Source of the DNA: Hydractinia symbiolongicarpus
Lineage: Eukaryota > Cnidaria > Hydrozoa > Anthoathecata > Hydractiniidae
Direction: 5' to 3'
DNA: 64,000 nt
Assembly: GCF_029227915.1 (NCBI RefSeq)
Contig: NC_079878.1
Location: 20,301,501 to 20,365,500, forward strand
The notes below the pieces were generated by a model that was not told where the DNA came from, searched no databases, and worked only from the letters and a program-made list of their open reading frames with translations. A program made the translations under genes and the position numbers. How positions within the stretch are numbered: the first letter of the stretch is position 1; every line of letters begins with the position of its first letter. Shown one piece after another: positions 397 through 61,099 of the stretch.

Positions 397-1089
397 CAGC
401 TTTACGACATTTTGTAGTTAATTTAAATATATGTTGACCAGGTTTTCCAGTGTTGCTGTCTTTTAAAAGATTCTTGCTCCTCTCTGGTTCAATAATGGAT
501 AATTGAGAGCAATATGGTTCACGATAACCAACAATTCCTCCAGAATTCCCAAGCTGTATATAATTCAATATAACATAAGTTACAAAGTCGTCGGTCACAA
601 GAGCAACTTGGAAGGTGTAATAGGCTGGTGGAGTTTCTGTGTCATTTAAATTGTAATACGTCACGATAACGGCCTGTGTTGCTGCATAGTTTGTTTTTGT
701 GTGAGCTTCAATGTCCCTAGATAACATGGCTAGTTCACTCTCCTTAAATGTTTCACGACAGTATACTCTTCCACCGCCGGAAGTTGACAGCTTTTTGTGA
801 TATACTTCTAAGAAAACATGCAGATGTCGGTAATCCTCCCCTAATTCATGTCCGTTATATGTAGATATGAATCCGTTAACATCTACCTGAAATATAGTTT
901 ATATAATTCCTTAATCGGCTTTAAAATAACGCTACGTATGTCAACTAGAAGCTGATTTTAAAACACCCACGTATAAGAGCCAAACTTTACTGGAGAAAAA
1001 CAGCATCTGGCGACTTAATGGAAAGTCATTCAATCTGCCCTCACTCGTTATCGCAAAATCACCTAGAGCTTCTCCATATGGATAAAAGA
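397..1089 (-). CDS. NIDO module 9 (exons 971-1089 and 397-886)
   Basis: The short exon encodes FYPYGEALGD and ends at TAC before a GTGGGT donor. The long exon opens after a TTTCAG acceptor with VDVNGFIS, the classic NIDO strand. It carries VYCRETF (an extra Cys where the other modules have Y), ATQAVIVTY, FQVALVTDD, YREPYC and a terminal TTKC-RKAG. It ends in phase 1 before GTGGGT. Exon lengths of 119 and 490 nt keep the 1-1 module phase. Confidence 0.8.
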
Positions 1090-21591: not shown

Positions 21592-22167
21592 ATGAGTTGT
21601 TTTATAAATGCAATGAGCAAAATTTATAGCAAAGATGTTGATAATGACCCCTGGATGCTCCATTATGTCCCGAAGCAGTTCAAGACCGTGGACATGCGTA
21701 CCAAAGCCGTTGAAGAGACCCCCTTAACGTCCATGTATGACCCAAATCATCTTACGCCTGAGGACATGTGCATTAGAGCCAATATAGAGGAACCTTGTAG
21801 GCTCGAGTATGTCCTAGATCAGTTCAAGACTGAAGAAATATGTGTAAAAGCTGTTGAACTAGAACCATCAGTGCTGGAGTATGTCCCAGACCAGTTCAAG
21901 ACTCAGGACATGTGTAGTATAGCTGTTGGAGTAGAACCGTGCATGCTTGAGCATGTTCCGGATCAGTTCAAGACCCAGGACATGTGTAGCATAGCTGTTG
22001 GAGCAGAACCCTGTATGCTCAAGTATGTCCCGGATCAGTTCATGACTGAAGACATATGTAGCATAGCTGTTAAAGATAACCCATGGATGCTTAAGCATGT
22101 CACCGAATTTAAATTAAACAATGTGGCTAATCGCCTTGGAGGCTATTTTAATTTATCTGTAAGTTAG
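21592..22167 (+). CDS. Protein of 24-residue repeats, DUF4116-like
   Basis: 191 residues from ATG. After about 15 residues it is a run of 24-residue repeats of the form NPWMLKHVPDQFKTQDMCSIAV. About six copies are visible, the central ones nearly identical, and the C-terminus GGYFNLSVS is non-repetitive. The pattern resembles DUF4116-type repeats known from amoebae and large DNA viruses, but I cannot confirm the family by reading alone. The high similarity between units suggests recent expansion. No signal peptide or membrane segment is seen. It could be an exon of a larger gene. Function is unknown. Confidence 0.5.
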   Translation: MSCFINAMSKIYSKDVDNDPWMLHYVPKQFKTVDMRTKAVEETPLTSMYDPNHLTPEDMCIRANIEEPCRLEYVLDQFKTEEICVKAVELEPSVLEYVPDQFKTQDMCSIAVGVEPCMLEHVPDQFKTQDMCSIAVGAEPCMLKYVPDQFMTEDICSIAVKDNPWMLKHVTEFKLNNVANRLGGYFNLSVS

Positions 22168-38590: not shown

Positions 38591-39616
38591 ATTTGGGCCT
38601 CGTTGGATCTATTTTGGTAAACAATTTCACCAATACTTGTACTGAAAATTGGAACGTCTGATGACACAGTCACTTCCTTACTGTACATATTCATTGGTGC
38701 AGGTAAATAGGATTAGGTCATGCCACTGAATTTGTTCTGTTCGCCATCAAAAATCGTTCAAGAGAATTATATCGGCTTCATTGGCACCAAGCCATGCAAA
38801 TTTTGTTGACGAAGGATTACATTTCGTACGAAAAAACAACTTCTTTAATGGCTCCAGCAGGAACGTTTTCCCAGTGTCAGCTGGTCCACTAAGAAGGATG
38901 TTTCTGTGCTTGCCTCTACCATGTTCCAGTAGATGTCGTACTGCAACTACAAAGACGCACGAATGTACGTTGTTGTTTCTCAAGACATCGAGGGGTTATT
39001 CTTTTTTGCTTTGCTTTATTTGCATTCGAATTATCGTCTCTCTGCGAAGAAAAAGAAGAAAAAGAAAAAGAAGAAACGTCTTCATTGTTGCTTCTTTTTT
39101 TGTTGGCGTCGATACATTTCTTGGTTTTTTGTTGGTCCCACCATGTCCAGCGGTGGGTGTTCTGCGATATGGTGCACGTCTGTGTCTTCTTTGGTGATAT
39201 ATCTGTAAGCTGCGAGATAGTAGTTGTGACTATCCTGAAAATGTATGACCGAGCCATATTTGTTCTCTATGATTTCCTTTGTAGGTTTCCATCGTTGCGG
39301 TGCTTTTAGTTTTACGCTCGCATGGTAATGACAACCGTCCTCTTCGTGCATTTCGTTGCAACAGACATAGTAATCGACAATCAAAATGCTCTTCCCAATT
39401 TGAAACGCTTTCGCGCAGGCGGATCCAAATGATTCCGGGGTAAGGAATTTGGCCACATCGGCTTGACTGTAGGTGATTAGGTATGTGCGACGAGGATTGT
39501 TTAAATTATGCATTTTTGACAATTACCTACGGAAGGTACAAACTGCTTATTTAGAATAATCTTGAGTCTATCAGATAGGTGGAAGAACGAGCCGCCAAGA
39601 CCTTTATTTGGCCACT
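38590..39616 (-). pseudogene. Rep (HUH nuclease) plus SF3 helicase element, copy A
   Basis: The minus-strand HUH part (from the ATG at 39513) has RTYLITYSQAD (motif I), CHYHASVKL (motif II, HxH) and YLAAYRYITKED (motif III with the catalytic Tyr region). The helicase part has GPADTGKTF (Walker A) and ADIILLNDFRW (Walker B), then DVPIFSTS. This is the CRESS-type Rep architecture. Compared with copy B, about 290 bases between the nuclease and helicase are missing, and the C-terminus is lost after QNRSNE near 38600. The upstream end (AGTGGC..., 39616) abuts LINE sequence. The origin could be viral or a Rep-type transposon. Confidence 0.75.
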
Positions 39617-40950
39617 GAGTGACACTTTGCTTGATGCGATAAACCTAGGAGCGGAAGCCAGTAATGCATACTCAAGAATATTATTGATGCCTGCTAAAAA
39701 AAGGATAATGGATAGTGTACAGCCCGCAAAAACTCCCTGCGAATGTATATGCCAATTACTTGGTGCAAGCGTAGAGAATGATTTGCTGTAGACGCCAATG
39801 TAATAATTTCGATAAAAGAAATCCACTGTGGAGGGACACCATGGCGCTTCAGGGCAAAAAAGATAAGTCGATGGGGAATTGAAGGGTAAGCACTTGATAT
39901 ATCTAGCCAGATGATAGCTAGATCCGACTTAGAAGGACGGGTATCTTTAAGTGCTGACCAAATCATTGTGTTTCCAGCAGCCTGGAACCTTTTCCATACA
40001 TCCCTTCTGAACAGGTTGCTAAAAGAGTTAAAAAGTCTTTGTATTTAAAAGAATAAGGGAGAAATTTTCGTAACAGTAGGGGCAGCAGGAAGATCTTCTA
40101 GATTACATAGGGAACGTCATAAAATTCATCCTTGACAACCAAAGATTTATAATTGTCTGAGGTCTGTTGATGGACACGCAGTGTGGCTGCACACTTAGGA
40201 TCAAGAAAGGCTTTACCAGCTGCAAACGGATTTGTCCTGAAAGCAGACTGTGCCTTCATTAACCTACCTTCTTCTTTACACGCGTCTCTGCCCGACGCAC
40301 TACCTTGATTTTTTCCCTTGTTTCGGCAAGGAGCTGCTGCAGTGCTAACTATTGAGCAACCTCTACAGCAAATAAAATTTGAGTCACAAAAGAGTTTTTT
40401 AAATTTATTAAATTAATAGTGTAAGGTTCTCCTATTTTTCCCAGAAAGTTTTTTAACCTTCTTAGCTGCTGAATGGTTAAAGAATTGTGCAGCTTCCTCA
40501 TAAACAGTGTCTTCCATCAGTTTGACTTTAGTTGAAAAAGAGTCACATAGACTTAGACTGTTGAATAACTTGGTAGCAACAGCCTTGTTCAGGGTCAAGC
40601 AAAGAGGATCATTCATCTCAGAGATTTCTCATCAATGTGACAGGAGTAATTCGTGTGGTTCTTGTCTGGAAATACACTTGCTGTCTGAAACTTTTCAGCA
40701 CCACGTTCAGATTTTTTACACATTTTTAGGGGAGGAAACTGATCTGAGTGACAAAGATAAGTTGTCTGGCTTACCTCAAAATCAACATCTTTGTCACTGT
40801 AGTAGTTTTGAGGGTTTGGGTTATTGGAATTCAGTACTACACTGAAGGAATATGCACAGAACAAAAGGCCACCCTGCGTTGCCTGGCACACAGGGTAAGG
40901 CTATAATTTCCACAGCTTCGCCACGACTGTGAGGATTCGCTAGTGATTAA
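39617..40950 (-). pseudogene. RLE-type LINE, copy A: N-terminal region and start of RT
   Basis: Minus-strand pieces: an N-terminal block (40616-40413, with YEEAAQFFNHSAAKKVKKL), FRTNPFAAGKAFLDPKCAAT (about 40230-40180), then RT motifs WLDISSAYPSIPHRLIFFAL (first catalytic Asp, about 39900) and, in another frame, GVFAGCTLSIILFLAGINNI. It breaks off at the start of the next RT block (SKVSL), where the Rep copy A terminus begins. The sequence is closely parallel to the RT of copy B at 51.7 kb. Several frame changes mean it is inactive. Confidence 0.65.
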
Positions 40951-41080
40951 TTAACCCATTAGCCATTCATCTACTGGCACGTACCGTAGATTAGGGTTCT
41001 GAGTAGTAAAAACAAAATCGTATCATAAAGAGTTGTCAAAAACGGTCAGGACAGATACCAAGTCGTATAGAACTACAATC

Positions 41081-41330: not shown

Positions 41331-43912
41331 ATGTCGACGAATAAGCATGTGAAATTGCAAGATATTGAGAATTATATTAGAAATGGGCAGTACCCTGCTC
41401 ATATAAAAAAAAGGAGACAAAAGTAACTTTAGGAAATCGAGTAAAAACTTTTCAATTGTTGATGGTCATCTGACGTTTAAAGGGACCAGAAGAGTTATTT
41501 TTGAAAATCAAAGAAAGAATGCCATCATTCACGACATACACGAGGGCATCAATGAAACTGTCGAGTCAGTGGCAATGAGTGGTCATAGAGGACGCGACTC
41601 GACCTACCAAAAAGTATCCGAGAGATTTTATTGGCATGGTATGGTCGATGATGTTAAAAACTATATTCGAACTTGTCAAAAATGCCAAAAACAAGGGAAA
41701 ATAGTCAAGAAGATCTCACCTGAACTTCAAAGTATCCATGTCGATTCAAATGTTATGCAACAAGTTGGGGTGGATATACGCAATCTACCCGAAATGAATG
41801 GCTACAAACACTTGATTGTATTGATTGACTATTTTTCAAAATGGTCAGAAGCCAAACCTGTTCAAGACAAAACTGCCCCAACTGTAGCAAGATTTTTGTA
41901 CGAAATGATCTGTCGTCATGGCTGTTTTAAGACACAAATTAACGACCAAGGGAGAGAATTTGTGAACCAAGTATCTGATGCCTTGCTTAAACTGACAGGG
42001 ACAGACCAAAGGGTGACCTCAGCTTACCACCCTCAGGCCAATGGATTGTGCGAACGGCAGAATCGGACTATTAAAGATACGTTAATTAAAGTGTTGGAAG
42101 AAAATCCAGCAAAATGGGTAGATGTTATCGATGGTGTTCTTTTTGCACACCGCGCAAGTATTCACTTTTCGACAAAATTTTCGCCTTTCTTTTTACTGTA
42201 TAATCGACACCCTACTTTACCCATTGACGTAAAGTACGACTTGATCAAGGAACCTGCAGAACTTGGCAAATGTGATGATCCTTTCGACATTGAGTCATTC
42301 AAAGATATCCTAAATTCGAGCTTGAAGCTACGAGAAGTATCACACTGTATTGCAGGGGAAAACATCGAAAAGGCCCAGAAGAAGCAACAAAGAGATTACA
42401 ATAGACGCCACAGTCAGCCTGAATCAACCATACCCATTGGCTCACAAGTACTCCTTCAAGATCTGAAACGACAAGATCGAAAGGGTGGGAAATTCAAATT
42501 CAAATGGGTTGGTCCATACACTCTAACATCGATATCAAAAAGAGGCTTATGTGAACTCAGTAATGCAAAAGGGGTTACATTGAAAAAAAAGTATAATGTT
42601 TCCCTCGTAAAACCTTTTTATGCAAGTGAACCGCAAGAGTTTGAAGATACCAGTAAACCGCAAGAGTCTGGAGACGAAGGTCAACCGCAAGAGTCTGGAG
42701 ACGAAGGTGAACCGCAAGAGTCTGGAGACGAGGGTGAACCGCACGAAGGTGGACCGCAAGAGTTTGGAGACGAAGGTGAACCGCAAGAGTCTGGAGACGA
42801 GGGTGAACCGCACGAAGGTGGACCGCAAGAGTTTGGAGACGAAGGTAAACCGCAAGAGTCTGGAGACGAAGGTAAATCGTTCGGAGGTGAACCAGAAGCT
42901 GAAACAACCCACACCAATCTCAGTTCACGTAAAAAACAGAAAAATTATTTTGATCTTCTTCCCACTGAGATCGTCGTCTTGATTTTAGAATATTCAATTA
43001 AACATGATTTTGGTGCTTTCAAATCCATTGCAAATACTTGTTCCAGATTTCGAACAATCATCCAACCAAGAAGAAGTAGCCTCTTGCCATCCGTCTATCT
43101 GGATTTCTACAGTGATTTTCTGGAAAAGCTACCATTCTATGGAAACAAAGTGAAAGTGAGTGTAATCAAACTTTCTCGACATTTTGGTTCAGGAAGTGGC
43201 ACGATCGATGATGTCTGTAAAGCAATCTCACACAAAAATTGGAAATCGGCTTGGTTGATTCTTGAAAAGCAAAAGCACAGCTGGTTTCTAATTGATCGTG
43301 TCTTTTGGAGAAAATCGTTTCCCAAAACAAGCCAGTTACCCGAAACCGAATCAAACGAGTGGCTTCGTAACCGTCTCTATATCTTGAAACAAAAAGATAA
43401 GGATATCTTGATCTCTAAAGATAGTTGGTTGAACGACAACCTAATGGATGCGGCTCAAAAGCTGATTTGTCAAGAAATCGGAACCCCTCTGACGTTCCAG
43501 ACAGTCCTGAATTCCCAAAAGAAAGATGTTGAGCCATATGAAGCCGTTAACCAAGAGCACATCCAACTACTTCATGATGGTCGCAATCACTGGATCCTCA
43601 GCTTTTGCTCTAATGGTCGCGTTCAAGTTTGCGACAGCTTGAATCAATTTCTAACGCGCTCCTCGAAAAAATCAATCAAATCCTTATACAAAAATTACTT
43701 CACTGGAAAAGAGATTATTTCTTTTTGTTGAAGTACAAAAGCAACCTGATGCCTATAATTGTGGCCTTTTCGCCATAGCGTTTGCAGCTGAACTTCTGGA
43801 CGGAAAGTCACCCTCTGACGCTGTATTTGTTGTTGATAGAATGCGAGCACATTTGATATCATGTCTGGAAGAACAAAAACTGAGACCCTTCCCTAAGGTG
43901 TCCGAAATTTGA
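41331..43912 (+). CDS. Ginger transposase: integrase, acidic repeat, F-box, Ulp1 protease (frameshifted)
   Basis: Starts at MSTNKHVKLQDIENYIRN; a frameshift near 41408 leads into the main frame. From the Met at 41569, residues 1-45 are an HHCC zinc region (HRGRDSTYQKV, FYWHG, CQKCQ). The DDE core has Asp69 (GVDI), Asp126 (NDQGREF) and Glu162 (LCERQ), i.e. D-x35-E. A GPY/F-like block (FKWVGPYTL) follows. Residues about 354-445 are an acidic 9-residue repeat (PQESGDEGE). About 457-500 (DLLPTEIVVLILEYS) reads as an F-box. From about 607 a C48/Ulp1 peptidase has His674 (NHW) and Asp689 (CDSL). After a one-base frameshift near 43727 the catalytic Cys follows in YNCGLFAIAFAAELLDG (43760-43762). Stop at 43910-43912. 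Confidence 0.85.
42631..42895 (+). repeat. Coding acidic repeat in the Ginger protein
   Basis: Ten tandem units of about 27 bases encode PQESGDEGE or PQEFGDEGE, with two short PHEGG insertions that define a higher-order unit of about 69 bases. The high DNA identity indicates recent unequal exchange or slippage. All three frames stay open across it, producing several spurious frames on both strands. Confidence 0.9.
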
Positions 43913-45850: not shown

Positions 45851-46640
45851 GAGAGAAGAAAATAAGTTACAAAGAGGTGGCTAACCATCGCAATGATGAA
45901 CTCAATATGTTAGGTCTTTGGAAATAAGCTAGAGGTTGTACTCCTCTACAGAAAATGCTTCTAAAAGCACAATTCTCCCTTTTTTTCAAGGAATTAATTA
46001 AAAAATATAAAAAAATAAAAAGGACACAACACATTTGAAAAGATGAACAGAACTTTAACCAAGGGCAGGTAGGTTTCGAGCCATATTTCTGAACCTAAGT
46101 ACCCTGAAATTTTGACTGGTGTAATAAGTGGAATCGTCACTCTCCAAAGAAAAGACTGAGTGTAGTCAAGCCCCCTTGCTGACTCATTATGAGCGGTTAA
46201 AATATTCTTACCTCAGCTCTTCTAAAAAGAAAACATATGACTTGTGACTGTTAAAAAGACGGTCATCACAGAAAATTACTGCTCTATACACCTTTGAACC
46301 TTTTGGTCGAAGGCTATGGTTGTGTAGTGATCATTATTTAAGTTGCCGCAATGGTTGATAATAGCCCTTAATTGAAAATGTTCACGAAATTTCACTTCTC
46401 CATCTACGGTAAAAGGTATGGAAATGGTACCAGGGTAAGTAGTAATACGAGAGGCAATTTTTGACACAAAGCCGTTCGCACTGGCAAAATGTTTTAGCTG
46501 TAAAATGAGAAGGGAAGTGCACGACACAACCTCTTTTCAACTAGAGCAGTTGACAACTCCTCGCTTTCAAATAAATTATCTAAGGAAGATTGTAACGTAG
46601 GGTGCAGAGAAAGTTGGACGCATGGTTCTATAACTTCTGA
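45851..46640 (-). pseudogene. LINE copy C: C-terminal USP piece and 3' UTR
   Basis: The minus strand gives LQLKHFASANGFVSK and INHCGNLNNDHYTTIAFDQK (USP His box; the Gly before His is Asp here), then the LINE 3' UTR. It matches copy D (54083-55250) closely across coding and UTR. It lacks about 50 bases present in D near 46545. It ends at about 46640, near the start of Rep copy B. It is a severely 5'-truncated copy, as is usual for LINEs. Confidence 0.75.
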
Positions 46641-46752
46641 GGAGCTTATCGTTTGAAAAGGATTAGGTTGATCGACCGAAATAATTTTTTTCTGAAACAG
46701 GTGTGCGTTTATATGCTACTGACACAATCTAGGAAGTTGAATACCACACACA

Positions 46753-48030
46753 AGTGGCTAAATAAATGTCTTGGCGGCTCGTTCTTCCACCTATCTGACC
46801 GCCTCAAGATTATTCTAAATAAGCAGTTTGTACCTTCCGTAGGTAATTGTCAAACATGCATAATTCAAACAATCCTCGTCGCACATACCTAATCACCCAC
46901 GGTCAAGCCGATTTGGCCAAATTCCCTACCCCGGAATCATTTTTATCCACCTGCGCGAAAGCGTTTCAAATTGGTAAGGGCATTTTGATTGTCGATTACT
47001 ATGCCTGTTGCAAGGAAATGCACGAAGTGGACGGTCGTCATTACCATGCGAGCATAAAACTAAAAGCACCGCAACGATGGAAACGTACAAAGGAAATCAT
47101 AGAGAACAAATATGGCTCGGTCTTACATTTTCAGGATAGTCACAACTACTATCTCGCAGCTTACAGATATATCATTAAAGAAGACACAAACGTGCACCAT
47201 AGCGCAGAACACCCACCGCTGGACATGGTGGGATCACCGAAAATCAAGAAATGTATCGACGCCAACAGAAAAAGAAGCAACAATGAAGATGTTTCTTCTT
47301 CTTCTTTTTCTTCTTTTTCTTTTCGCAGAGGGACGGCAATTCGAACGCAAATAGAGCAAAGCAAAAAAGAATAACCAACCTCGAAGTAGCGGATTTTCTT
47401 GTAAAACATAAAATCAAAACAGAGAATTAACTTTTCCGATTACATAGGAACGACGCAAGGCTTAAGGCAATGATCTCGCCAACTTTGTCACTGCGAAAAA
47501 TAGGGAACAGTTAGGCGAAGTCATCGATCTGGCTTGGCAGTTAGAACAATCAACCAAGACGCAGAAGACATTAAGCTCACACGGATGGAACGGGTACATC
47601 GCTGCAATGATTCGGAATGTGCCAATGCTTGCGATGCCCGCTGGATCAAGTGTGCGACAGATGTCTTGAGAAACAACAACGTACATTCGTACGTCTTTGT
47701 GGCTGCAGTACGAGATCTACTGGAACATTTCAGAGGCAAGCACAGAAACATCCTTCTTAGTGGACCAGCAGACACTGGGAAAACGTTCCTGCTGGAGCCA
47801 TTAAAGAAGTCGTTTTCTCGTACGAAATGTAATCCTTCGTCAACAAAATTTGCTGCCTTGGTGCCAATGAAGCCGATATAATTCTCTTGAACGATTTTCG
47901 ATGGCGAACAGAACAAATTCAGTGGCATGACCTAATCCTAAATACCTGCACCAATGAATATGTACAGTAAGGAAGTGACTGTGTCATAAGACGTTCCAAT
48001 TTATTGGTACAAGTATTGTTGAATTAGTTG
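46753..48030 (+). pseudogene. Rep (HUH nuclease) plus SF3 helicase element, copy B, first part
   Basis: From ATG at 46856: RTYLITHGQAD, RHYHASIKL (HxH) and YLAAYRYIIKED for the nuclease, then a Ser-rich linker and a stop at 47372. Broken frames follow, then CNDSECANACDARW, KHRNILLSGPADTGKTFLL (Walker A) and, after a frameshift, ANEADIILLNDFRW (Walker B). The upstream leader (46753-46855) is almost identical to that of copy A, including the small inverted repeat TACCTTCCGTAGGTA (46831-46845). The reading breaks at about 48030, where a LINE is inserted, and resumes at 51758. Confidence 0.8.
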
Positions 48031-48034
48031 ATGA

Positions 48035-48781
48035 AAAAGGTTTACAATACAGCAAGCTGCACTGAAGTATCTTGTCTACAGGGACGGTGGATGTAAATAA
48101 AATTGGGATTAGGCTCCCAGAAGAAGGTGCTGAATACACTTTCTTGCTTATTACAAGCATGAGTACTGTCCAACTTGGACCTATAACTATTCACTGAGAA
48201 AATCTTAAAGAGAAAAAACAATCCTTCAATCACAAACAATACGACACAAGACAGATCTAACAACATAAACGGACTGGTTACAGAACAAACACAAATGGAA
48301 AAAATGTATATGTCAAAAATATATAATATAAAAAAAGAATTATATAAAACCCTCCTGTGCGCCAGAACTTGTGACTCTGGCTGTAGCTTTCCACATGTGT
48401 TACAGGGCCCCAACACTCAGCCTTACAAAGGAGGTTGTCATGACAGGACCAGCCTGTACATATTTTGACTAAGGACAGCAGGGTTGTCAAGCCTGAAGAC
48501 CAAGTTAGTAAACTTGGGCACCTTACTGAACTGGGGTAAAAAGTGGGGTCGTTACACCCAAAGACAAGCTGAAAGCAAACCCCCTTGCTAAGCTTCTTTT
48601 AAGTTACCAGAGAAGAGTGAGCTGAACTCTTTACCCTCTGGGTATTGACGGCAAACTGGTTCGAATGAACTAGCTGGGGTAATATAAAACCGCTCGGATT
48701 TACATTTTCCTCCCCATGACCCTGGAAGTACAGGTTTTATAAACGTAATGATAACTGTATAAGAAAGAAAGAAAAAGCGGA
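48035..48781 (-). other. 3' UTR of LINE copy B
   Basis: Non-coding sequence between the stop of the USP frame and the 3' insertion boundary. It contains one copy (about 48530-48590) of the motif CTGGGGTAA...GGG...CAAAGACAAG...CCCCCTTGCTAA, which is present three times in copy D and once in copy C. Confidence 0.6.
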
Positions 48782-50404
48782 TCAACAGCGAACGTAACAA
48801 AGAATATAACATGAATTGTTGTTGAGAATAGGTGGAGAGCATTTGCAAACCGCTCTATCATTGCAGTGGTACCAAGAATTTGTGGCAGGATCCTTAACAT
48901 AAGCCCAATAATGACCTGCGGTTAATGTACCGGAGTGATTAATTGTTGCTAACAATGAGTAGTTCTGATTAAACATTGTGTCCGTATCACTGACGAGAGG
49001 TAGTTGCAGGAGAGAGTCACGTAAAGAAACACATTCAACAACTCTGTTGTCTTTTACCAGATGTTCACCATGTTTTAAAAACCTTTTAAGATGCAGGAAT
49101 AAGATTTCACTACTCCTGCTGATTTGCGTTTCTCTAGTACTCTCTCTATGTGCAAAGCATTGCGGACAAAACCACTTGTTTCCATCAGTTAGAATTTCCG
49201 GTTCTAAAAATTTGCTGACACAAGATTGGATTTTAGATGTCATTGGCAGTGTTAAAATGTCCTGCATTTCGACATTTACCGAGGTGCACAGGCAGGTGTT
49301 ACAGCTTACGGACATTGAGATTTCAGTTGAGATTTTATCTGCAGCAATCGGGGAAAATCCCTTAAGGGCGTCCAAAACCACAAACAAAATCTCTGCTACA
49401 TCTTGCTGAGTATTAAATTGGAAGTCCAGTTTCCCATCACAGTGCATTTGACGTTCAAGGGCCCAGAGAAAATTCGAAGGGTCAACAGGTGACAATGATT
49501 GCTTCAGCTTCGCCATGTTAAGCGAAATAGACCTCGCAATAGGTGATAAATGAAACGATTCTGACCCACTCTGGCACCAGAGTGTTGGAATGGTACTTAA
49601 TACTTGCAAAATGGCGTTGGCGTAACAAGAGTTGCCTTTGTTTAAAAAACCGATGTTTTTATAGACACTAATTGGTTGAGTGTCATTTTTATTTTGGCTA
49701 ACCTTTTTAGATGGCCCCTTTCGGCGAGATGAAACACCCTTGGTCTCCACAATGGGCAAAGCCTGCTTGGATTTGGGTAATTGCATTAAGGAGTCAGTTG
49801 ACCAAACATTGGATTCACGTGCCAGCCAGATACAAAAAGAAGACCTCATACTGATTTTACCGAGATCATTTGCAGTGGAATAAGCAAGTTTGTTGGTGAA
49901 ACCCATTCTTTTTAAACAGGCAGTGGTGGTTCTTGCACAATATCCTCTTGCTCCTACTTCCACTGCGAAGAAATCAACTTGCCAGCCATTAACCATAATC
50001 ACATTCATTAAACAGGAATATTTGGCAACTTTTGTGGAGTGCCAAGCATTCATGTTTTCCTCACATGGGCAAGTGAGTTCTACAATAATAACGCGCTTAA
50101 GGTCATTTGAATATAACACAAGGTCCGGTTTAAGCTCAGAAATGGCAATATGGCTAGGAAACACATAGTTCGAGTGTGTGTCAGCAACAATCTTCCAATC
50201 TTTGGTAAGGTGCAGTATACCTGACACTTTAGATTTTGTATGTGCCTTTGACCCAGCTCTCAGAAAGGTTATTTTTTGGCAATTTTTAGGAGGTTCAGAA
50301 GGAAGCTCAAAAATGAACTTTTTCAAAGTTTCTACCAAATGGGTAAGTACAGAATCGTGTCTAAAGGTATATCTACCCTGAAAGAGCAGTTTTACAAGCA
50401 CCAA
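48782..50404 (-). CDS. LINE endonuclease (RLE) fused to a ubiquitin-specific protease
   Basis: 540 codons without a stop. The true reading enters from the RT frame near 50385, so the first ATG is not a real start. Residues 10-160 form the restriction-like endonuclease: RHD (15-17), KPDLVLYS (PD at 93-94), VELTCPCEE (Glu109) and KVAKY (125-129), the PD-(D/E)XK layout of R2-group LINEs. After an 85-residue Lys/Ser-rich linker comes a full USP (peptidase C19) domain, residues 250-540. Its Cys box is IGFLNKGNSCYANAILQVL (Cys260), its zinc pairs are CNTC (368-371) and CPQC (413-416), its His box is INHSGTLTAGHYWAY (His498), and CNDRAV supplies Asn/Asp (515-516). All catalytic residues are present. 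A deubiquitinase at this position in a LINE is unusual. Confidence 0.85.
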   Translation of the reverse strand: MVLVKLLFQGRYTFRHDSVLTHLVETLKKFIFELPSEPPKNCQKITFLRAGSKAHTKSKVSGILHLTKDWKIVADTHSNYVFPSHIAISELKPDLVLYSNDLKRVIIVELTCPCEENMNAWHSTKVAKYSCLMNVIMVNGWQVDFFAVEVGARGYCARTTTACLKRMGFTNKLAYSTANDLGKISMRSSFCIWLARESNVWSTDSLMQLPKSKQALPIVETKGVSSRRKGPSKKVSQNKNDTQPISVYKNIGFLNKGNSCYANAILQVLSTIPTLWCQSGSESFHLSPIARSISLNMAKLKQSLSPVDPSNFLWALERQMHCDGKLDFQFNTQQDVAEILFVVLDALKGFSPIAADKISTEISMSVSCNTCLCTSVNVEMQDILTLPMTSKIQSCVSKFLEPEILTDGNKWFCPQCFAHRESTRETQISRSSEILFLHLKRFLKHGEHLVKDNRVVECVSLRDSLLQLPLVSDTDTMFNQNYSLLATINHSGTLTAGHYWAYVKDPATNSWYHCNDRAVCKCSPPILNNNSCYILCYVRC

Positions 50405-51757
50405 GAATGTGAGCAGAAGTGCAAATTTCTTTGTGACATAGGAAACATGATGGTTCTGTATTTATCTTCCACCTCCTTAGGTTACTTGGTGATGGCAGAA
50501 CATCGTAAGTGGATTGCAGGCAGAAAGATAAGAGATTAGGAGGAGTTGCTAGGATGTTCTTCCATGAAAGATCAAACTTTACGTAGTTCTCCCATCTTGT
50601 CCATTGGCCCTGCACCTGAAGTTGCAGTGCCTTAGATAGATAGCTTTCCTCGTCAATCTCAGCCGATGTTTTTGCGATTAACTTTCTGTACTTGTGAGTG
50701 GTTTTTGGTGGTATTACTTCCACTTTACAAATGCCAAGACCGGTTCGTCCACGCTGTACAGGACCCCTTATGGTCTTGTACTTTAATTCACCCTCAGCTA
50801 TGTTAACTGCATCGCTCACCTTCCAAGAACCTGCTTTTAAAGATGGATCGAGTGTTGACAGAATCGGATCTTTGGAGTGACGCAAAAGTAGGTGGCCGCT
50901 AATCTTTGCGGATTTTAAAATAGAAGTGAGGCTCTTAATGGGCAGAGGGCAAGGAGAGGAGTCAGCATATAGGGAAATGTTTGTGATGGAACGGTGTAAG
51001 TTCAGCCATTTTCGTATGAACACTGAAACCTTTTGCTCTAGGCGCCCAGCAACAGACATCGAGACCTCGTATATTAACAGTGGCCACTGAATTCGCGGGA
51101 TCAAAAGATGTTGCAAGATCCAAAGTTTTTGCGCTCCAGTGTATAAGGACCTATTAATGACACCAAGCCCTTCTATCAGCTTTTCCTCCAATTCGTTGAT
51201 GGACTTCCTGTCTGAGATAGAGCAATCAATAATCCGGCCTAAAAATCGCACTGGCGAGGCATGAATAGATGGGATATACTGTGAGAAATCAATGTCGTTT
51301 TCAGGGCTACTTACACTAAAAGGGGTGCTATTGATAGATCTTCCCTTGATGATCACAAAACTACGGGATTTTTCAGCGCGAAATGTCATATTGGCCCAAC
51401 TTAGAGCTGTGGTGCACCTGTTAAGGAGTACTTGTGTTCCAGCAACAGAAGAAGACATGATGTTTATGTCGTCCATAAAAGCCCTTATTAAAGGTAAGGA
51501 TACTCTGTTAGAGGTGATGTAGCATGACACAGATGTTGCCAGCGTATACTCCAAAATAACATTTATGCCTGATAAAAACAAGACGATAGACAGGGTGCAG
51601 CCAGCGAAGATGCCCCTGAAGTGCTGGTGCCAATTGCTTGGAGCAGATTTGGAGAATGATTTGCTGTACAGCCCAGAATAGTAACCCTTTACAATGGCAA
51701 TCCAACTAGGAGATATACCATACCTTTCCAAAGCAAAAAAGATTAATCTGTGCGGTA
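50373..51757 (-). pseudogene. LINE reverse transcriptase, copy B, frameshifted before the endonuclease
   Basis: Open from the truncated 5' end to a stop at 50373. It carries GIFAGCTLSIVLFLSGIN and the RT catalytic AFMDDINIM (DD at residues 87-88 of the frame that starts at 51731), then a thumb-like region and a C-terminal CCHC knuckle (CFLC...HILGAC). It ends LSG-stop. In copy D the same place is open and continues into the endonuclease; the alignment implies a two-base deletion here. The product would have been one polyprotein: RT, knuckle, RLE, USP. Confidence 0.8.
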
Positions 51758-51936
51758 TTGTTTATCAAAATAGATCCAACGAGGTTGATCAAGGAGAGAC
51801 CGAGATGATGTCGGTTAGATGGAAGACAGTCAAATTTCACAAGCGAATTAACAAACACGACCAAATAAGTTGGGAGCCTTGTTGTCGTTTCTTCTCAAAA
51901 TTGATTTTATTTGGTGAAGATGTAGAAAATTTTTGA
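51758..51936 (+). pseudogene. Rep element copy B, C-terminal part after the LINE insertion
   Basis: Plus-strand IVYQNRSNE continues the block that ends at 48030, then ETEMMSVRWKTVKFHKRI and a C-terminal CCRFFSKLILFGED before a stop at 51934-51936. This is the tail of the SF3 helicase module. The copy-A counterpart ends after QNRSNE, so the tail is visible only here. Confidence 0.75.
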
Positions 51937-54082: not shown

Positions 54083-54459
54083 ACTGAAAGAGAAAATGAT
54101 TTACAAAGAGGTGGCTAGCCACCGCAATGATGAACTCAACTTGTTAGGTCTTTGGAAATAAGCTAGAGGTTGTACTCCTCTAGAGAAAATGCCTCTAAAA
54201 GCACAATTCTCCCTTTTTTCAAGAAATTAATTAAAAATATATATAAAAATAAAAAGGACACAACACATTTGAAAAGATGAACAGAACTTTACCCAAAGGC
54301 AGGTAGGTTTCGACCCATATTTCTGAACCTAAGTACCCTGGATGTCTAGCTGGGTCACCACAAAGAGGTCCGCGGACGGTCATCAGCAGAAACTAAACAT
54401 CCCTATCTTCCTAAAGCAAACTTTGACGACTTTCTGTTCAACTGTGCTATTCTTTGTTT

Positions 54460-54720
54460 TTAGCTCAGGTAATAAGTAGAATCGTTACTCTCCAAAGACA
54501 AGATCATGTGTGATCAAACCCGCCCTGCTAATATATATTTTTTCTAACTGGGGTAACAAGTGAAGTCTCACTCTCCAAAGACAAGACCTAGTATGATCAA
54601 ACCCCCTTGCTAACTTAATTTTTATTTAATTTTGTTTTATTTTTGACTGGGGTAATAAGTGGAGTGGTCACTCTCCAAAGACAAGACTGAGTGTAGGCAA
54701 GCCCCCTTGCTGACTCATTC
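54460..54720 (-). repeat. Three tandem copies of a LINE 3' UTR motif
   Basis: Units of about 65 bases at about 54467-54530, 54548-54615 and 54648-54715 follow the plan GGGGTAATAAGTGGAGT...CACTCTCCAAAGACAAGA...CAAACCCCCTTGCTAAC. Copies B and C carry one unit each at the matching place. Conservation between diverged LINE lineages suggests a functional RNA element, for example an RT-recognition site, which is inferred. Confidence 0.7.
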
Positions 54721-54734
54721 TGGTTAAAATATTC

Positions 54735-55740
54735 TTAACTCAGCTCTTCTAAAAAGAAAACATATGACTCATGACTGTTAATAAGGCGGTCATCACAGAA
54801 AATTACTGCTCTATCGTTGCAATGTATCCACCTATGAACCATTTGGTCGAAGGCTATGGTTGTATAGTGACCATTATTTAAGTTGCCGCAATGGTTGATA
54901 ATAGCCCTTAATTGAAAAATTTTAACAAATTTCACTTCTTCATCTACGGTAAAAGGTATGGAAAGGGTACCAGGGTAAGCAGTAATACGAGAGGCAATTT
55001 TTGACACAAGGCCGTTGGCACTGGCAAAACGTTTTAGCTGTAAAATGAGATGGGAACCGCACGACACTACCTCTTTTTCAACTAGAGCAGTTTGATAAGC
55101 GTTGCAAACATGTCAGGAGTAGGCATTAGTGTCTGAAAACTCCTCGCTTTCATAAAAATTATCTAAGGAAGATTGTAACGTAGGGTGCAGAGAAAGTTGG
55201 AGGCATGGTGCTATAACTTCTGAGGAGCTGGTAATATGACATGAATTGCAAGTGATTTATGTCTGGATGCCAATACTAAAAACACTTCCAAGGAATGGAA
55301 AGTCTAATGACAGACCAGGTAGGGCATATTCAAGAACCTCGGGGACGTCGTGCTGAGCAAAGATATTAAACGCACTTCCCTTCGCAGCTGAGATATGATG
55401 TTTCATAGCACGCAAAAAATGGGAGGGATCAACTGGACTTCTAGAAACAGCCAAACTTTGAAGAACACCTACAAATGCTTCGCCTAACTTTGAGGTTGTT
55501 TTGCTGACAGAAATGGCTTCTTTAACTTTTGGAAGGTTATAAAAACATTGTAAGATTGAGTTTCATAACATGTGTTTCCCAAGTTTTTTGGACCGCTTTT
55601 CTAAAATCAGTGTTAGATGGCAATGCGACTGTTGTTTTAAAAGACCTTGCAGCAAGTTTTTCGGGTGTTTTGATTTTACAAGATTTTGTGTGACTTGCGG
55701 AAGATTTCTCAGGAGCTTTTGGTTTCTTACATTCCATATT
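54735..55740 (-). pseudogene. USP domain of LINE copy D, broken
   Basis: The minus strand gives a linker (KAPEKSSASHTKSCKIKTPE), then a Cys box LGNTCY with the catalytic Cys codon at 55568-55570. After a one-base shift it continues NSILQCFYNLPKVKEAIS, then SPVDPSHFLRAMKHHIS and, from 55067, ILQLKRFASANG, INHCGNLNNGHYTTIAFD (His box) and WIHCNDRAVIF. The Cys box is closer to the canonical USP sequence than that of copy B. Frames are broken in at least three places, but Cys, His and Asn/Asp all persist. Confidence 0.75.
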
Positions 55741-55908
55741 TGTAACAGAAAAAACTTCAGGAATGATTGGGGCCTTTCAGGCACAACCAAGTGGTAGAGT
55801 TTCGAGACATCCAGATGTAAAAAGAAGCAATCATGGAGGTAAAAGTTAGGGATTTTAATAGGAAACGTAAAGGCTTGTTAGGGAAACCAAGGGGACGAAA
55901 ACAGTTCC

Positions 55909-56550
55909 TTACTGATTCTGAACAAAACCCCTTGCACCCACCTCAATGGCAAAGAAATGCACTATCCATCCATTGTTTTTTATAGCATAACAAAGTGAAG
56001 AATATTTGTAAAGTTTTCGTTTGTGCCAATATTCCGTGTTCTCTTCACATGGACAAGTCAGTTCTACCATAATTACAGTTTTGGAAGAACTGGATATTAA
56101 TAACACGTCTGGGCGTAGTTGTGTTATTGCAATGCATGGTGGAACAACTAAAACGGAATCTAAATCTGACAGTATTTTCCAATCGGAAGCAAGGTGAAGA
56201 AGGCCTGGACACTTTGTATGCCTCTTCTTAGATGGTGATTGACCGGCTGGAATGAAATTAATTTTGTTGCACTTGAAAACCTTAAGAGGTTCATATGATA
56301 CCAAAAACTCTTTTAATGCCTTCACCAAAACTATTAAAACTGAGTCATGACGGTATGTGTATCTACCCTGCGTAAGGGAGGTCCTACAGGCACCCAATAT
56401 GTGAGAGACATTTGAGGATGGTTTTTTGCACAGAATGAAACTTTTGTCTTTCTCAATTCCCCATCTCACGAGATTGGTTAGAGAAGGAAGGGTGTCGTTG
56501 GTTGCCCCTATACAAAAGTAAGTTAGACATTGTGGCAGTGAAAGAAGCAA
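55909..56550 (-). pseudogene. Knuckle and RLE endonuclease of LINE copy D
   Basis: 213 residues. The CCHC knuckle (ILCKKP...HILGACRTSL) runs directly in frame into QGRYTYRHDS, RPDVLLISSSSK and MVELTCPCEEN, the endonuclease motifs. KRKLYKYS provides the downstream Lys/Tyr. It ends GARGFVQNQ-stop where copy B continues GARGYCART. This copy proves the knuckle-to-endonuclease continuity that copy B has lost through a small deletion. Confidence 0.8.
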
Positions 56551-56848
56551 GCTTTCGGTAAGCGTAAGTGCCTTTTGGTGGTATATTTTTGTGGTCTAGG
56601 AGCCCTAAGCCAGCTCGACCAATCTGATGCAACCCTAAAATCCTTTTAAAAATGAGCTGACTATCCGCCGAAAGAACTGCCTCACTAACTTTTCAATTTC
56701 CAGCTTTTAAATCTGGTATGCACTTAGACACACAAGGTGTTAATTATTTATGTATTTTTAACACGTGACTCTTAAAGCCACGTGTGACGAATGTGATGTA
56801 GATGTATACTTTTTAGATGCTTCGGCAGTACAGAAAATATTTTGTTGA

Positions 56849-58561
56849 TATAAGACACGTTTTCATGAGTTGCCTTTGGAAAAGAAGTTAAGAATAAGAA
56901 ACACGTTAGTAAAAGTTATCGAAAATTACTTACGAGAAGAAATAAAACCTTGTTATGAACATTATCAAGAAGAAAAACTTACGTTATTGCAAACGTTGAA
57001 CACTACCATAGAGAGCAAACTTGGAAAATTTTTAAGTATTACGGAAGAGATTTCCGAAATTATTGAAGAGGAAGATCAATTAATAAAAGATGCTCAAGAA
57101 AGTAGTGACTTTGAAGTACGGGTAAGAAATGAACTGCTAATACTTGATCGTTTCCTAAAATCAAAACAAGATAGAAGTGACACAGTCAGTACGAGGTCAG
57201 TTAGTGCTTCAAGCTCTATTAAGCTGCCAAAAATTGAAATAAAAAAATTTGATGGCGATCCAACTAATTGGTTTTCATTTATTGATTCTTTTGAAGCAGC
57301 AGTTGACAAAAACGATCACTTGTCTAATGTTGAAAAAATGAATTATTTGTTAGGATTTGTTGTTAAAGACGCTGCATCTACGATAAGCGGTTTTAAACTG
57401 AGTAATGATAATTATGAGATTGCTTTAAATTTGTTAAAAGATCGCTTCGGAGATCCGCAAATGATAATTTCAGGACATATGAATAAACTATTAAACTTGG
57501 AGCCTGTCATGGCTATTTCTGACGTTCGTAATTTACGCCAATTGTTCGATATAACTGAGGCGCAAGTGCGTAGTTTACAATCTTTAGGAGTTGAATCTCA
57601 AAACTTTGGCTCAATGCTTATACCTGTGTTATTGCAAAAACTGCCAGGAGAATTGCGTCTGATTATTATTCGCCAACTTGGAAAAAACGCATGGAAAGTA
57701 AGCGAGGTTATGCAAGCTTTTAAAACTGAATTAGAAGCGCGAGAAAAAGTTTCAACCGGTCAGGAGGAAAGCCCTTGTTTTTCTGGTGCTTCCCTTTATG
57801 TTGGAAATCGACGGAATTTCGATGCGAAAGAAAGAAAATGTGCTTTTTGTGAAAACCCAGGGCACAAACCGCAATTTTGCTCTATTGTTTCCAAACCGAC
57901 TGCGCGCTCTTCCATTTTAAAAAGGAAAGGATTATGCTTTTTATGTCTACAGTCAGGTCATGTAGCAAGACACTGCACAGTTAGATGGAAATGTTTTAAA
58001 TGTAAGGGACGTCATCATGTGTCTATTTGCAATAAGGGTAATCGAGACCAGGATAGCAATGATCAGAATGAAGGTGAGGGAACTTCAAATAACGTGGCGA
58101 ATACTGAATGTGATTTTAACGCAGTTTTGTTACAAACTGCGTCTGCGGAAATTTTTTCTGATGATAAAAACTGTCACAGGTTTAGAATTTTGTTTGATAG
58201 TGGCAGTCAAATGTCATACATTTCTCTGCAAGCGGCGGAAAAATTGAAATTGAAAACAATCGACAAAAAACAAATGTGTCTTAAAACGTTTGGAGGAGCT
58301 AAACAAAACAAAACTTTGGACATGGTTAGATTTACCGTTAAAACGAAAAATGACGAAGAAAATATTACGGTAAACGCGTTCGTATCCGAAATATGCTATC
58401 CTTTGACAAACCAAAACATCGAGGGTGCAAAATCTAACTACCCTTTTCTGTGTCGTCTCGATTTAGCAGACAGTAATCCAAAAAATCAACCATTAAGTTG
58501 TGGATATTTTGATTGGCGGGGATTATTATTGGTCCTTTATGAAAAACGACATGAAACGTAG
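56849..58561 (+). CDS. BEL/Pao Gag and protease
   Basis: Open from 56849. No in-frame ATG lies near the start, so the N-terminus is either truncated by the neighbouring LINE or begins elsewhere. Counting from 56870, residues about 20-110 are a coiled-coil-like Gag start (LTLLQTLNTTIESK). About 120-290 is the DUF1759-type Gag core (KLPKIEIKKFDGDPTNWFSF). Three CCHC-type knuckles follow at about 323-337, 355-368 and 374-386 (CAFCENPGH, CFLCLQSGH, CFKCKGRHH). At about 441 is the protease motif LFDSGSQMSYIS. A one-base shift near 58490 ends this frame at 58561, and the polyprotein continues in the frame below. Confidence 0.8.
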   Translation, partial: YKTRFHELPLEKKLRIRNTLVKVIENYLREEIKPCYEHYQEEKLTLLQTLNTTIESKLGKFLSITEEISEIIEEEDQLIKDAQESSDFEVRVRNELLILDRFLKSKQDRSDTVSTRSVSASSSIKLPKIEIKKFDGDPTNWFSFIDSFEAAVDKNDHLSNVEKMNYLLGFVVKDAASTISGFKLSNDNYEIALNLLKDRFGDPQMIISGHMNKLLNLEPVMAISDVRNLRQLFDITEAQVRSLQSLGVESQNFGSMLIPVLLQKLPGELRLIIIRQLGKNAWKVSEVMQAFKTELEAREKVSTGQEESPCFSGASLYVGNRRNFDAKERKCAFCENPGHKPQFCSIVSKPTARSSILKRKGLCFLCLQSGHVARHCTVRWKCFKCKGRHHVSICNKGNRDQDSNDQNEGEGTSNNVANTECDFNAVLLQTASAEIFSDDKNCHRFRILFDSGSQMSYISLQAAEKLKLKTIDKKQMCLKTFGGAKQNKTLDMVRFTVKTKNDEENITVNAFVSEICYPLTNQNIEGAKSNYPFLCRLDLADSNPKNQPLSCGYFDWRGLLLVLYEKRHET

Positions 58562-58780
58562 CACCAAACGTGAGCCCACAGCAATTTCATCAAAACTGGG
58601 ATATATTTTAAGTGGCGGAGTCATGGGTACTAAATTGGATACTTCAGTGAACATTGTTAATACTCATGTTTTAAAAGTGCAAAATGAGTTGAGTGAAAAT
58701 AAAACACTTGAAGACTTGGTTCAGGGATTTTGGAACATCGAGACTATGGGAATTAAAAAATCAGAAGAAAACGAGATTTC
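58500..58780 (+). pseudogene. BEL/Pao polyprotein between protease and RT
   Basis: VDILIGGDYYWSFM, TAISSKLGYILSGGV and LVQGFWNIETMGI are the conserved linker between protease and RT in BEL/Pao elements. The frame differs by one base from Gag-protease. It is cut at 58780 by the DIRS insertion, and the matching continuation begins at 63329. Confidence 0.75.
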
Positions 58781-58799
58781 ATTGAATAAAATCTTCGCC

Positions 58800-58862
58800 C
58801 AATCTAATACTGGATAAACGCCCTTTCAGGCCTTGAAGCTGAAAGTCATTACTCAGGACCTC
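58800..58862. repeat. DIRS left terminal inverted repeat
   Basis: CTAATACTGGATAAACGCC onward matches the complement of 63203-63256 with a few changes, and matches the complement of 62754-62816 in the internal region almost perfectly. Confidence 0.85.
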
Positions 58863-58886
58863 TTTCGCCAATTCACGCTAATTAAG

Positions 58887-59116
58887 ATGGACGCTTCGTA
58901 AGTTTCTTTCATATTTTAAATTTTAAATCCACAAATATCTCTTCATTCATTCCGTGTTTGGTAAGAGATAGTACTATTTTGTTATCCTCGGCTATAAGAG
59001 GAATGCATATCGTCATAATTTCCGATTTTGATGATGTTTAAACGTTTGTATCATAGAATTGATCACGACAACAGCTCGACGATGATTCCCATGATTCATG
59101 GGAGTTACCAGCTGCT
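58887..59116 (+). other. Possible DIRS leader exon and intron
   Basis: An ATG at 58887 (ATG GAC GCT TC) is followed at once by a strong GTAAGT donor, and TCATAG at 59051-59056 is a possible acceptor. The frame after that acceptor hits a stop before joining Gag, so one base seems to be lost downstream in this copy. This may be the real Gag start. Confidence 0.35.
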
Positions 59117-61099
59117 TTGTGCGACTACGTCCACAAATACATGAAATCCCACATACCAGACAAGGATGTGAAGGAAAAAGTTCTTGCTCAAAACCCAGTG
59201 CCTTCAAATATACGGAAGGTACCAGAATTGGATTCCTACATAAAGATACTATTACAGGACAATTCTAAGTATTCCACATTAAAGATGGAAAAATCATTCA
59301 AAAATGTCCACGACAAATTGCATTTGGTTTTTGGACCGCTGTCCAAAATTTGGGCCATGATGGATTCAGAAAAAGAGCAGAATCCCAAAGACGAGGCTCT
59401 GAAAGAAGTGTCGAACTTATTTGAACAAACGATTCTTCTATTGGCTCAAACCCACAATTCTATGGCTTACCACAGAAGGGAGAATGTGTTATCGACTTTG
59501 ATTGATTCAACTACTAAAGTGAAGGATATCTTGAAAAACCAATCTAAAGAATTAGATGCGGCAGACAATGATTGTTTGTTCGGTGACGCTTTTGAATCAA
59601 AAATGATCAAAGATAGCAAAGCCTTAAAAAAATCTGAAGGCATTTTCACCGGATTGAAATCACCACGGACATCAACTTCTTCCTCCAGAGGAGCTTCATC
59701 ATCATCAGGTTTCTCAGGCAATCGGCCCTTTCGGAAAGGCCCCCTGTTTCAAGGGCGAGGCAGGGGGAACAACCTGTGGAAAGGAAGCAACCAAAACAGA
59801 GGTAAAACTACTTCCTTCAATTTCAGTACCTGTTGTGTGTTCAAAGGTCGAGGAGCCTCTTTCCTTGACAAAGGTTCATCCTTTAGTAAGAGACTTGTTC
59901 CACAAGTACTGCAACCGAATTTATCTCAGGCAGGGAGGCTAAGCTTTTATATTCAGAATTGGGAGGTTCTGACTCAGGATCCAGAGATTCTTCAATGGGT
60001 CCAAGGGTACCAAGTGCCTTTTCTGTCAGTTCCTCAACAAACTCATCCTCCTCGTCCTCCCAAGTTAACAACAGAGGAGGAGACTCTAGTAGAAAAAGAG
60101 GTTCAGGAAATGTTAGCCAAAGGGGCCATAAAGAGGGTTGCTTCCCCAGGTCGGAACCAGTTTCTAAGCTCGATATTTCTGGTTCCCAAGAAGGATGGGG
60201 GGTACAGACCGGTCATAAATCTAAAAAAATTGAATCAGAACATTCCATACGAGCACTTCAAGATGGAAACCTTGGGTCTGTTGAAGGAGCTCTTGAAGAA
60301 AGGGGACTACATGTGCAAAATAGACCTGAAAGATGCTTATTTTTCAGTTCCTCTTCACCAACGCTCTCAGAAATATGTAAGGTTTCAATGGAGACAAAAG
60401 ATTTACCAGTTTGTGTGCCTCTGTTTCGGCCTAGGACCTGCTCCAAGAATTTTTTCAAAATTGATGAAGGTTCCAATAGCAATGTTGAGACGACTAAATG
60501 TCCGCCTCATCATTTATCTAGACGATTGTTTAATCCTGGCCGAGACAGCCCAAAATGCAGAGATGGCACGCGACACTTTGATTTTCATTCTTCAACATCT
60601 AGGATTCTCAATAAATCTGAAAAAATCCGTGTTACAACCAACACATTTAATTCAATTTCTGGGAGTAGAGGTGGATTCCGACAATTTGAAACTGGGTTTA
60701 CCTCGGGAGAAGATGAAAAAAATATTGTCCCAGTGCAAAGGTCTATTGTCTGCATCAAAGGTCTCAGTAAGGGATCTGATGAAGGTGATAGGTCTTCTTT
60801 CTTCATCAGCAGTGGCGGTACTTCCAGCACCCCTGCAATACAGAGCTATGCAAAGACAACAAATTTTAGAGCTGTCTGCCAAGGGAAGTTACGACTCTTT
60901 GATAACACTGACACAGGACGTGAAAGGGGAGCTCAATTGGTGGTGCCAGAACCTACAGTTGTCAAATGGGCGGTGTCTGGTGTCATGTCCTCCTCAACTA
61001 GTAATATCATCGGATGCATCCCTTCAGGGGTGGGGGCCTACTGCAATGGCAAGAAAACAGGAGGTCAATGGTCCGCTTCGGAGAAAAACCTGCATATAA
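59117..61099 (+). CDS. DIRS Gag-like protein and reverse transcriptase
   Basis: Open frame of 660 codons. It begins inside Gag (the first codon is TTG, and the frame is open from about 59063). Residues 1-190 are helical Gag-like sequence. About 190-245 is rich in Gly/Arg/Ser (GNRPFRKG, GRGRGNN). From about 310 the RT shows TTEEETLVEKEVQEML, FLVPKKDGGYRPVIN, KIDLKDAYFSVPLH and YLDDCLIL (467-474). Near the end is the RNase H start (VISSDASLQGWG). One G is missing in a G-run near 61032, so RNase H continues in another frame from about 61035. Confidence 0.85.
   Translation: MCDYVHKYMKSHIPDKDVKEKVLAQNPVPSNIRKVPELDSYIKILLQDNSKYSTLKMEKSFKNVHDKLHLVFGPLSKIWAMMDSEKEQNPKDEALKEVSNLFEQTILLLAQTHNSMAYHRRENVLSTLIDSTTKVKDILKNQSKELDAADNDCLFGDAFESKMIKDSKALKKSEGIFTGLKSPRTSTSSSRGASSSSGFSGNRPFRKGPLFQGRGRGNNLWKGSNQNRGKTTSFNFSTCCVFKGRGASFLDKGSSFSKRLVPQVLQPNLSQAGRLSFYIQNWEVLTQDPEILQWVQGYQVPFLSVPQQTHPPRPPKLTTEEETLVEKEVQEMLAKGAIKRVASPGRNQFLSSIFLVPKKDGGYRPVINLKKLNQNIPYEHFKMETLGLLKELLKKGDYMCKIDLKDAYFSVPLHQRSQKYVRFQWRQKIYQFVCLCFGLGPAPRIFSKLMKVPIAMLRRLNVRLIIYLDDCLILAETAQNAEMARDTLIFILQHLGFSINLKKSVLQPTHLIQFLGVEVDSDNLKLGLPREKMKKILSQCKGLLSASKVSVRDLMKVIGLLSSSAVAVLPAPLQYRAMQRQQILELSAKGSYDSLITLTQDVKGELNWWCQNLQLSNGRCLVSCPPQLVISSDASLQGWGPTAMARKQEVNGPLRRKTCI

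Follow-up and report, generated by a model that had tools for sequence, protein, structure and literature searches.

The window, the whole stretch of 64,000 nucleotides from Hydractinia symbiolongicarpus analysed here, contains four truncated or decayed copies of related LINEs (copies 1 to 4, Table 1). In copy 1, 559 open codons on the minus strand at 50461-48782 contain a restriction-like endonuclease (RLE) followed by a ubiquitin-specific protease (USP). Both the endonuclease and the full USP lie within the 540-codon part that an earlier note on this DNA had described as a single frame joining a PD-(D/E)XK endonuclease to a USP, and that description is borne out: the Pfam UCH profile aligns over its whole length (1-254 of 254) to residues 270-556 of the 559 aa with E=8.4e-32. 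The catalytic residues named at the time are also where they were placed, in the numbering of the 540 codons, with Cys260 in its box, His498 in the GHYW that starts at 497, and Asn515 and Asp516 in the CNDR that starts at 514. The joining of an endonuclease to a complete USP in copy 1 is thus confirmed as real. The 5' end of this copy falls inside the reverse transcriptase (RT) and its upstream part is not intact; a small private indel where the zinc knuckle meets the endonuclease puts the RT in a separate frame. In the PDB, the RT matches proteins of R2 retrotransposons at E=2.5e-4 and 4e-4. A low-confidence model of the 540-aa protein, made from three sequences (pLDDT 34.6), has an order of helices and strands compatible with an endonuclease; we judged this model poor and kept it out of the fold search.

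The other copies are more decayed or less complete. Copy 2, taken in the earlier note for a diverged second copy with the same order, does keep that order. It has several stops and frame changes, and its endonuclease and USP are 53.6% and 29.7% identical to those of copy 1. The USP changes frame past the Cys box and has two stops, and each of its two pieces matches UCH on its own. Copy 2 clusters with locus L028 in the endonuclease and USP trees alike. Copy 3 likewise retains the USP end that had been ascribed to it, followed by the 3'UTR, and its protein matches copy 1 at E=0.001. The RT of copy 4 was matched at 60-65% identity, and the similarity ends at 39617 beside a Rep-like element recognised by eye.

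Table 1 Features of the 64-kb window, with positions counted from its first letter.
Feature	Position	Strand	Evidence
Copy 1, 5'-truncated family A LINE	48030..51760	-	99.5% identity over 3736 bp to positions 1634-5369 of the L017 element
Copy 1 RT, C-terminal part, with CCHC zinc knuckle	50376..51761	-	RVT_1 E=3.4e-7; zf-RVT 4.8e-6, just above cut-off
Copy 1 restriction-like endonuclease, RHD and PD-x14-E(LT) motifs	49805..50386	-	Extent from tblastn of locus L009
Copy 1 USP (peptidase C19)	48785..49654	-	UCH E=8.4e-32; PDB USP8, USP15, USP2, best E ~1e-22
Copy 1 3'UTR motif	48525..48596	-	Smith-Waterman score of 64 with copy 2; at most 32 in 200 shuffles
Copy 1 3'UTR and family A 3' end	48030..48784	-	
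Copy 2, family C, decayed; has the end of the RT, the endonuclease, the USP and the 3'UTR	54091..56737	-	tblastn and DNA repeats
Copy 2 endonuclease, split over two frames	55787..56376	-	53.6% and 35.3% identical with copy 1
Copy 2 USP (boxes present: Cys, Q-H-D, His, Asn/Asp)	54738..55600	-	UCH 4.2e-6 and 1.5e-13, two pieces
3'UTR motif of copy 2, present three times in tandem	54453..54722	-	
Copy 3, 5'-truncated family C (USP end and 3'UTR)	45857..46664	-	DNA 89-95% identical to copy 2
Copy 4, related element represented by its 5' end and part of the RT	39617..41048	-	81% and 69% DNA matches to L017
Second Rep-like copy, beginning near the point at which RT similarity in copy 4 ends	~39600..38700	-	By eye
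Small Rep-like element	46847..47374	+	Weak REP_ORF2-G2P, E=0.043, below cut-off
Probable Ginger1-like element	41407..43731	+	Integrase (H2C2 and rve); C-terminal part Ulp1-type protease by eye, no Pfam Ulp1 match
BEL/Pao-like frame with another reverse transcriptase	56849..61099	+	DUF1759 3e-33; RVT_1 1e-22
DUF4116 repeat protein	21586..22167	+	
Probable tandem gene array: nine look-alike open frames, each 154-218 aa long	353..16585	-	Frame 7144..7641, one of the nine, scanned: nidogen-like NIDO domain, E=1.4e-10

Intact elements and families across the genome

We searched the 480.9-Mb assembly of 76 contigs, including the window's own contig (C4). The endonuclease-USP protein gives at least 86 matches among the matches listed (80 of 1590 candidates scored); these include the window's own copy, and some are pieces of a single copy. 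Thirty-six of the 86 extend from query residue 60 or lower to 515 or higher and so contain the endonuclease and all USP boxes, which rules out a chance junction, and 51 extend from residue 110 or lower to 420 or higher. Twenty loci of 10 kb were then compared, picked mainly for long frames and not as a random sample. At six of them (L017-L022), on four contigs, a single unbroken frame of 1426 aa encodes RT, zinc knuckle, endonuclease and USP, and the frame at L023 is 1423 aa long. L018-L023 are 99.3-99.75% identical to L017 at the DNA level, so these elements, about 5.37 kb in length and assigned to family A, have been recently mobile. Pfam recognises in the L017 protein RVT_1 (339-609, 8e-16), zf-RVT (828-892, 5e-5, below the cut-off) and UCH (1137-1423, 5e-32).

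At least three further families have the same layout. In family B, L024 has a frame of 1422 aa with RVT_1 at 5e-17 and UCH at 4e-31, and its USP is 46% identical to that of family A; L024 may be slightly 5'-truncated, because its first codons fall outside the part common with its relative L027. RT, endonuclease and USP follow in that order in family C (L028, L043) and in family D (L042), and endonuclease and USP are also seen in the family D locus L034. Across families A-D the USPs are 32-55% identical and a common 3'UTR motif is present. The proposal that the fusion is a property of the family is thus strongly supported by six intact copies, by the same order in four families, and by the congruent trees and the low between-family dN/dS (where computable) described below.

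The reverse question, whether every member carries the USP, was approached through the endonuclease motif ELTCPCEE, which as a DNA pattern has 220 exact places in the genome (reversed-pattern control, 0). A listed USP lies downstream of 40 of the first 100 places, two of them only through the list of endonuclease-USP matches, a count that leans on the USPs listed (149 of 1015 UCH candidates and 80 of 1590 endonuclease-USP candidates scored). Among the 60 without a listed USP, five endonuclease loci were examined (L047-L050 and one in L036). USP sequence is present in all five, split by an insertion in L050, so that no USP-less member was found among these five of the 60. Viewed from the other side, 32 of the 65 listed USPs on contigs C1-C4 have the exact endonuclease motif upstream. 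At L039 and L046 the USP occurs without an endonuclease in the stretch examined, as might be the case in 5'-truncated copies.

The USP domain: predicted fold, descent and selection

In 11 aligned USPs, Cys10, Gln84, His248, Asp266 and the zinc cysteines Cys163 and Cys166 (domain numbering) are invariant, and position 265, the third catalytic position, is Asn or Asp. The QQD box and the finger cysteines are retained too, except that L043 deviates in the box and L035 in one cysteine. L028, an old decayed copy outside this alignment, has an altered His box and a stop. AlphaFold, given the 290-aa USP domain of L017 and an alignment of 11 sequences, produced a best model with a mean pLDDT of 78.5 and a pTM of 0.80 (range of the five models, 41 to 78.5). 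Its best Foldseek matches are USPs, among them USP2 (TM 0.80), USP36 (0.81) and USP21 (0.82), several of them in ubiquitin complexes; the values for USP2 and USP21 are those for USP2-ubiquitin and USP21-ubiquitin. The domain is therefore predicted to be a peptidase C19 with a USP fold in which the catalytic Cys, His and Asn/Asp boxes are kept. Cellular USPs such as USP2, USP8, USP15 and USP21 have the same fold and catalytic boxes, whereas the 290-aa domain seen here is fused to RT-RLE, is intronless and lies inside a mobile element.

Trees of the endonuclease and of the USP both set (B,D) apart from (A,C), with support of 0.98 and 0.87. This agreement implies one acquisition followed by joint descent. 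Between families, dN/dS gave values for the USP of 0.14 (A-B) and of 0.29 and 0.37 (A-C), well below 1 in the 3 of 9 pairs where a ratio was computable, and for the endonuclease of 0.10, 0.15 and 0.21 (3 of 6 pairs); with synonymous sites close to saturation or beyond it, the values are rough and the remaining pairs gave no ratio. These ratios indicate purifying selection on the USP between families. The USP diverges faster than the endonuclease in all six between-family pairs that have both (pN 0.377 versus 0.298 for A-B). Within families, USP ratios of 0.41-1.18 (16 computable pairs) fit decaying copies, as expected, and lend no support for selection.

Class, ends and relatives of the element

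The RHD and PD-x14-E motifs of the endonuclease are invariant across the four families, and we take them to be those of an RLE on the basis of general knowledge of that family; the endonuclease has no RLE match in Pfam and nothing meaningful in the PDB. The ELTVPWE-type motif is known from other RLE elements and has no place in this genome. With its LINE-type RT, its CCHC knuckle and endonuclease, and the 5'-truncated copies, scattered through the genome, that share its 3' end, the element is an RLE-type non-LTR retrotransposon. By Pfam, the 1426-aa protein lacks an integrase, and neither L017 nor L024 has an N-terminal protease, or an N-terminal zinc finger or Myb domain above the cut-off, although short fingers can escape detection. 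A weak match of the RT to APG12, a ubiquitin-like family, is below the cut-off and was dismissed.

A motif of ~66 nt lies within ~200 nt 3' of the USP at all six loci tested in families A-D, and also in window copies 1-3. Truncated copies retain the USP and the 3'UTR. RNA structure in the motif is unsupported by folding z-scores of -0.36 to 0.91 (five sequences) and by an alignment fold with 14 pairs, four of which have two-sided changes in some sequence, and a covariation term of -0.48; Rfam has no family at the motif and one chance-level match elsewhere. The nine family A loci examined that reach the 5' end (L017-L023, L031, L032) have the 3' end of another copy, a piece of 111 to >2400 bp, directly upstream at the same junction base, and no such piece precedes L030, which is truncated inside the element. 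Such base-exact head-to-tail junctions suggest template jumping, in which an RT that has reached the 5' end of one RNA continues at the 3' end of another, as the R2 RT does in vitro; read-through of a tandem array also fits. The family B locus L027 appears to have a similar upstream junction, seen at less than base resolution. No target-site duplication was recognised in five of five copies, in which the longest stretches in common measure 5-7 nt and sit at offsets that do not match. By eye, the sequences flanking nine loci on the 3' side have nothing in common.

The order RT, CCHC knuckle, PD-(D/E)XK endonuclease is that of the R2-group RLE LINEs (R2, R4, HERO and CRE clades), whose proteins end at the RLE. 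Members of the R2 clade have N-terminal zinc finger and Myb domains; Pfam finds no R2-type N-terminal zinc finger or Myb domain here above its cut-off, which short fingers can miss. NeSL/Utopia elements insert in spliced-leader or U2 genes. In the parts of PMC4640811 consulted, from which the RLE clades above are also taken, these nematode elements are RLE-type LINEs that likewise encode one protein with a protease domain for ubiquitin-like proteins. That domain is Ulp1-like and N-terminal, and Utopia has its RLE at the C terminus (PMC4640811, same parts); here the protease is a USP (C19) that follows the RLE at the C terminus, and Pfam finds no N-terminal protease. Outside the LINEs, Ginger1 DNA transposons, with 12 families from Hydra, have an OTU or Ulp1 domain added to the C terminus of the mobility protein, and their authors suggest a role for ubiquitin in transposition (excerpts of PMC2836005). 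Ginger1 thus resembles the present element in its C-terminal protease domain and differs in having a DDE integrase instead of an RT and OTU or Ulp1 instead of a USP. Helitrons are rolling-circle elements, a class of DNA element different from that described here. Helitrons with OTU domains are mentioned in the same excerpts of PMC2836005, and deubiquitinase-like domains, e.g. in Helinoto, in the title of a reference in PMC7599744. The nearest C19 precedent found in these sources is a Trichomonas transposase with a peptidase C19 (PMC2836005, passing mention).

In a search confined to an open-access library, which takes in neither Repbase nor subscription papers nor eukaryotic protein databases, no LINE with a USP was recognised, and the novelty of this one is provisional. 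We know of no earlier USP in a LINE. Relatives beyond this genome were not confirmed in IMG/VR, genome_contigs, phages or plasmids; three of eight loci from pattern matches yielded short weak matches (E 0.24-0.94) that we judged to be chance. With the USP, a further type of protease for ubiquitin or ubiquitin-like proteins joins Ulp1 and OTU among those carried by retrotransposons and DNA transposons.

A putative role for the USP and its alternatives

Architecture, recent mobility, retention, selection and predicted fold are established at the level of sequence, and they suggest that these elements may use the cell's ubiquitin system while spreading. On balance we favour the reading that an RLE-type LINE acquired a cellular USP once and kept it at the C terminus as a putative cis-acting deubiquitinase that spares the element's own protein. 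By analogy with known LINE biology, the endonuclease would nick the target, and the RT would prime on the nick and copy the element RNA from its 3' end, which would leave 5'-truncated copies. The USP would act in cis to strip ubiquitin from the element's own protein or RNP, and the de-ubiquitinated protein could then escape proteasomal removal for long enough to insert. Self-protection is favoured on grounds of proximity, the first chain that a fused enzyme encounters being its own.

The main and serious rival is action in trans at the insertion site, where the USP would deubiquitinate histones, repair factors or replication factors after the nick and so open chromatin or blunt the damage response. 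We regard it as possible, with distinctly less confidence. The architecture speaks for it, as the USP rides on the endonuclease/RT protein and would reach the nick, and the Ginger1 authors proposed that the Ulp1 and OTU domains of transposases act via the ubiquitin and SUMO pathways of DNA repair (PMC2836005, in excerpt). USP1 with ubiquitin-conjugated FANCD2 is among the Foldseek matches, as are many other USPs, and the match is not specific. The solved sequences closest to copy 1, however, are USP8, USP15 and USP2, and PDB chains that we take to be those of yeast Ubp8, a histone deubiquitinase, come out on top only with the decayed copy 2; both points count against action in trans. A stronger version, in which deubiquitination is obligatory for target-primed reverse transcription in the whole LINE lineage and the USP, arriving together with the nickase, strips ubiquitin at the nick from a nucleosome or a repair factor, seems unlikely to us; if it were true, loss of the USP cysteine would stop insertion. 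With intact copies so nearly identical, the part that ubiquitin removal plays in retrotransposition can be tested directly.

Some USPs elsewhere are non-catalytic, and the domain could be a binding module and not an enzyme, tethering the element through its grip on ubiquitin or on a host protein that carries ubiquitin; this is improbable, as the catalytic Cys, His and Asn/Asp third position are kept in the aligned USPs of families A-D. Still less probable is a neutral passenger, a USP captured by read-through and useless to the element. Mobile elements do pick up host sequence, and within-family USP ratios reach 1, but protein similarity persists across families despite near-saturated synonymous sites, dN/dS is 0.14-0.37 where computable, and the USP is kept in all four families examined. 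A host USP gene or pseudogene adjoining LINE remnants at each locus is a reading that nothing beyond the three copies in one window would favour, and it is refuted by intact dispersed copies: one 1426-aa frame recurs in six copies on four contigs, the USP sits between the endonuclease and the 3'UTR motif at six of six loci, and the non-LINE USPs L037 and L038, with no RT or endonuclease in the stretch examined, are 24-36% identical to the LINE USPs outside the 22-23-residue Cys box (57-68% within it).

The whole-genome UCH search gave at least 150 matches among those listed (149 of 1015 candidates scored). Eighteen of the first 20 listed are single-exon and 840-864 bp long. LINE-type USPs account for eight of the first ten UCH loci, six of these eight with an endonuclease or RT in the stretch examined. 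In a genome of this kind, many of the USP-coding stretches with one exon may belong to LINEs and not be host genes, and gene prediction may list LINE USPs among the genes of the host.
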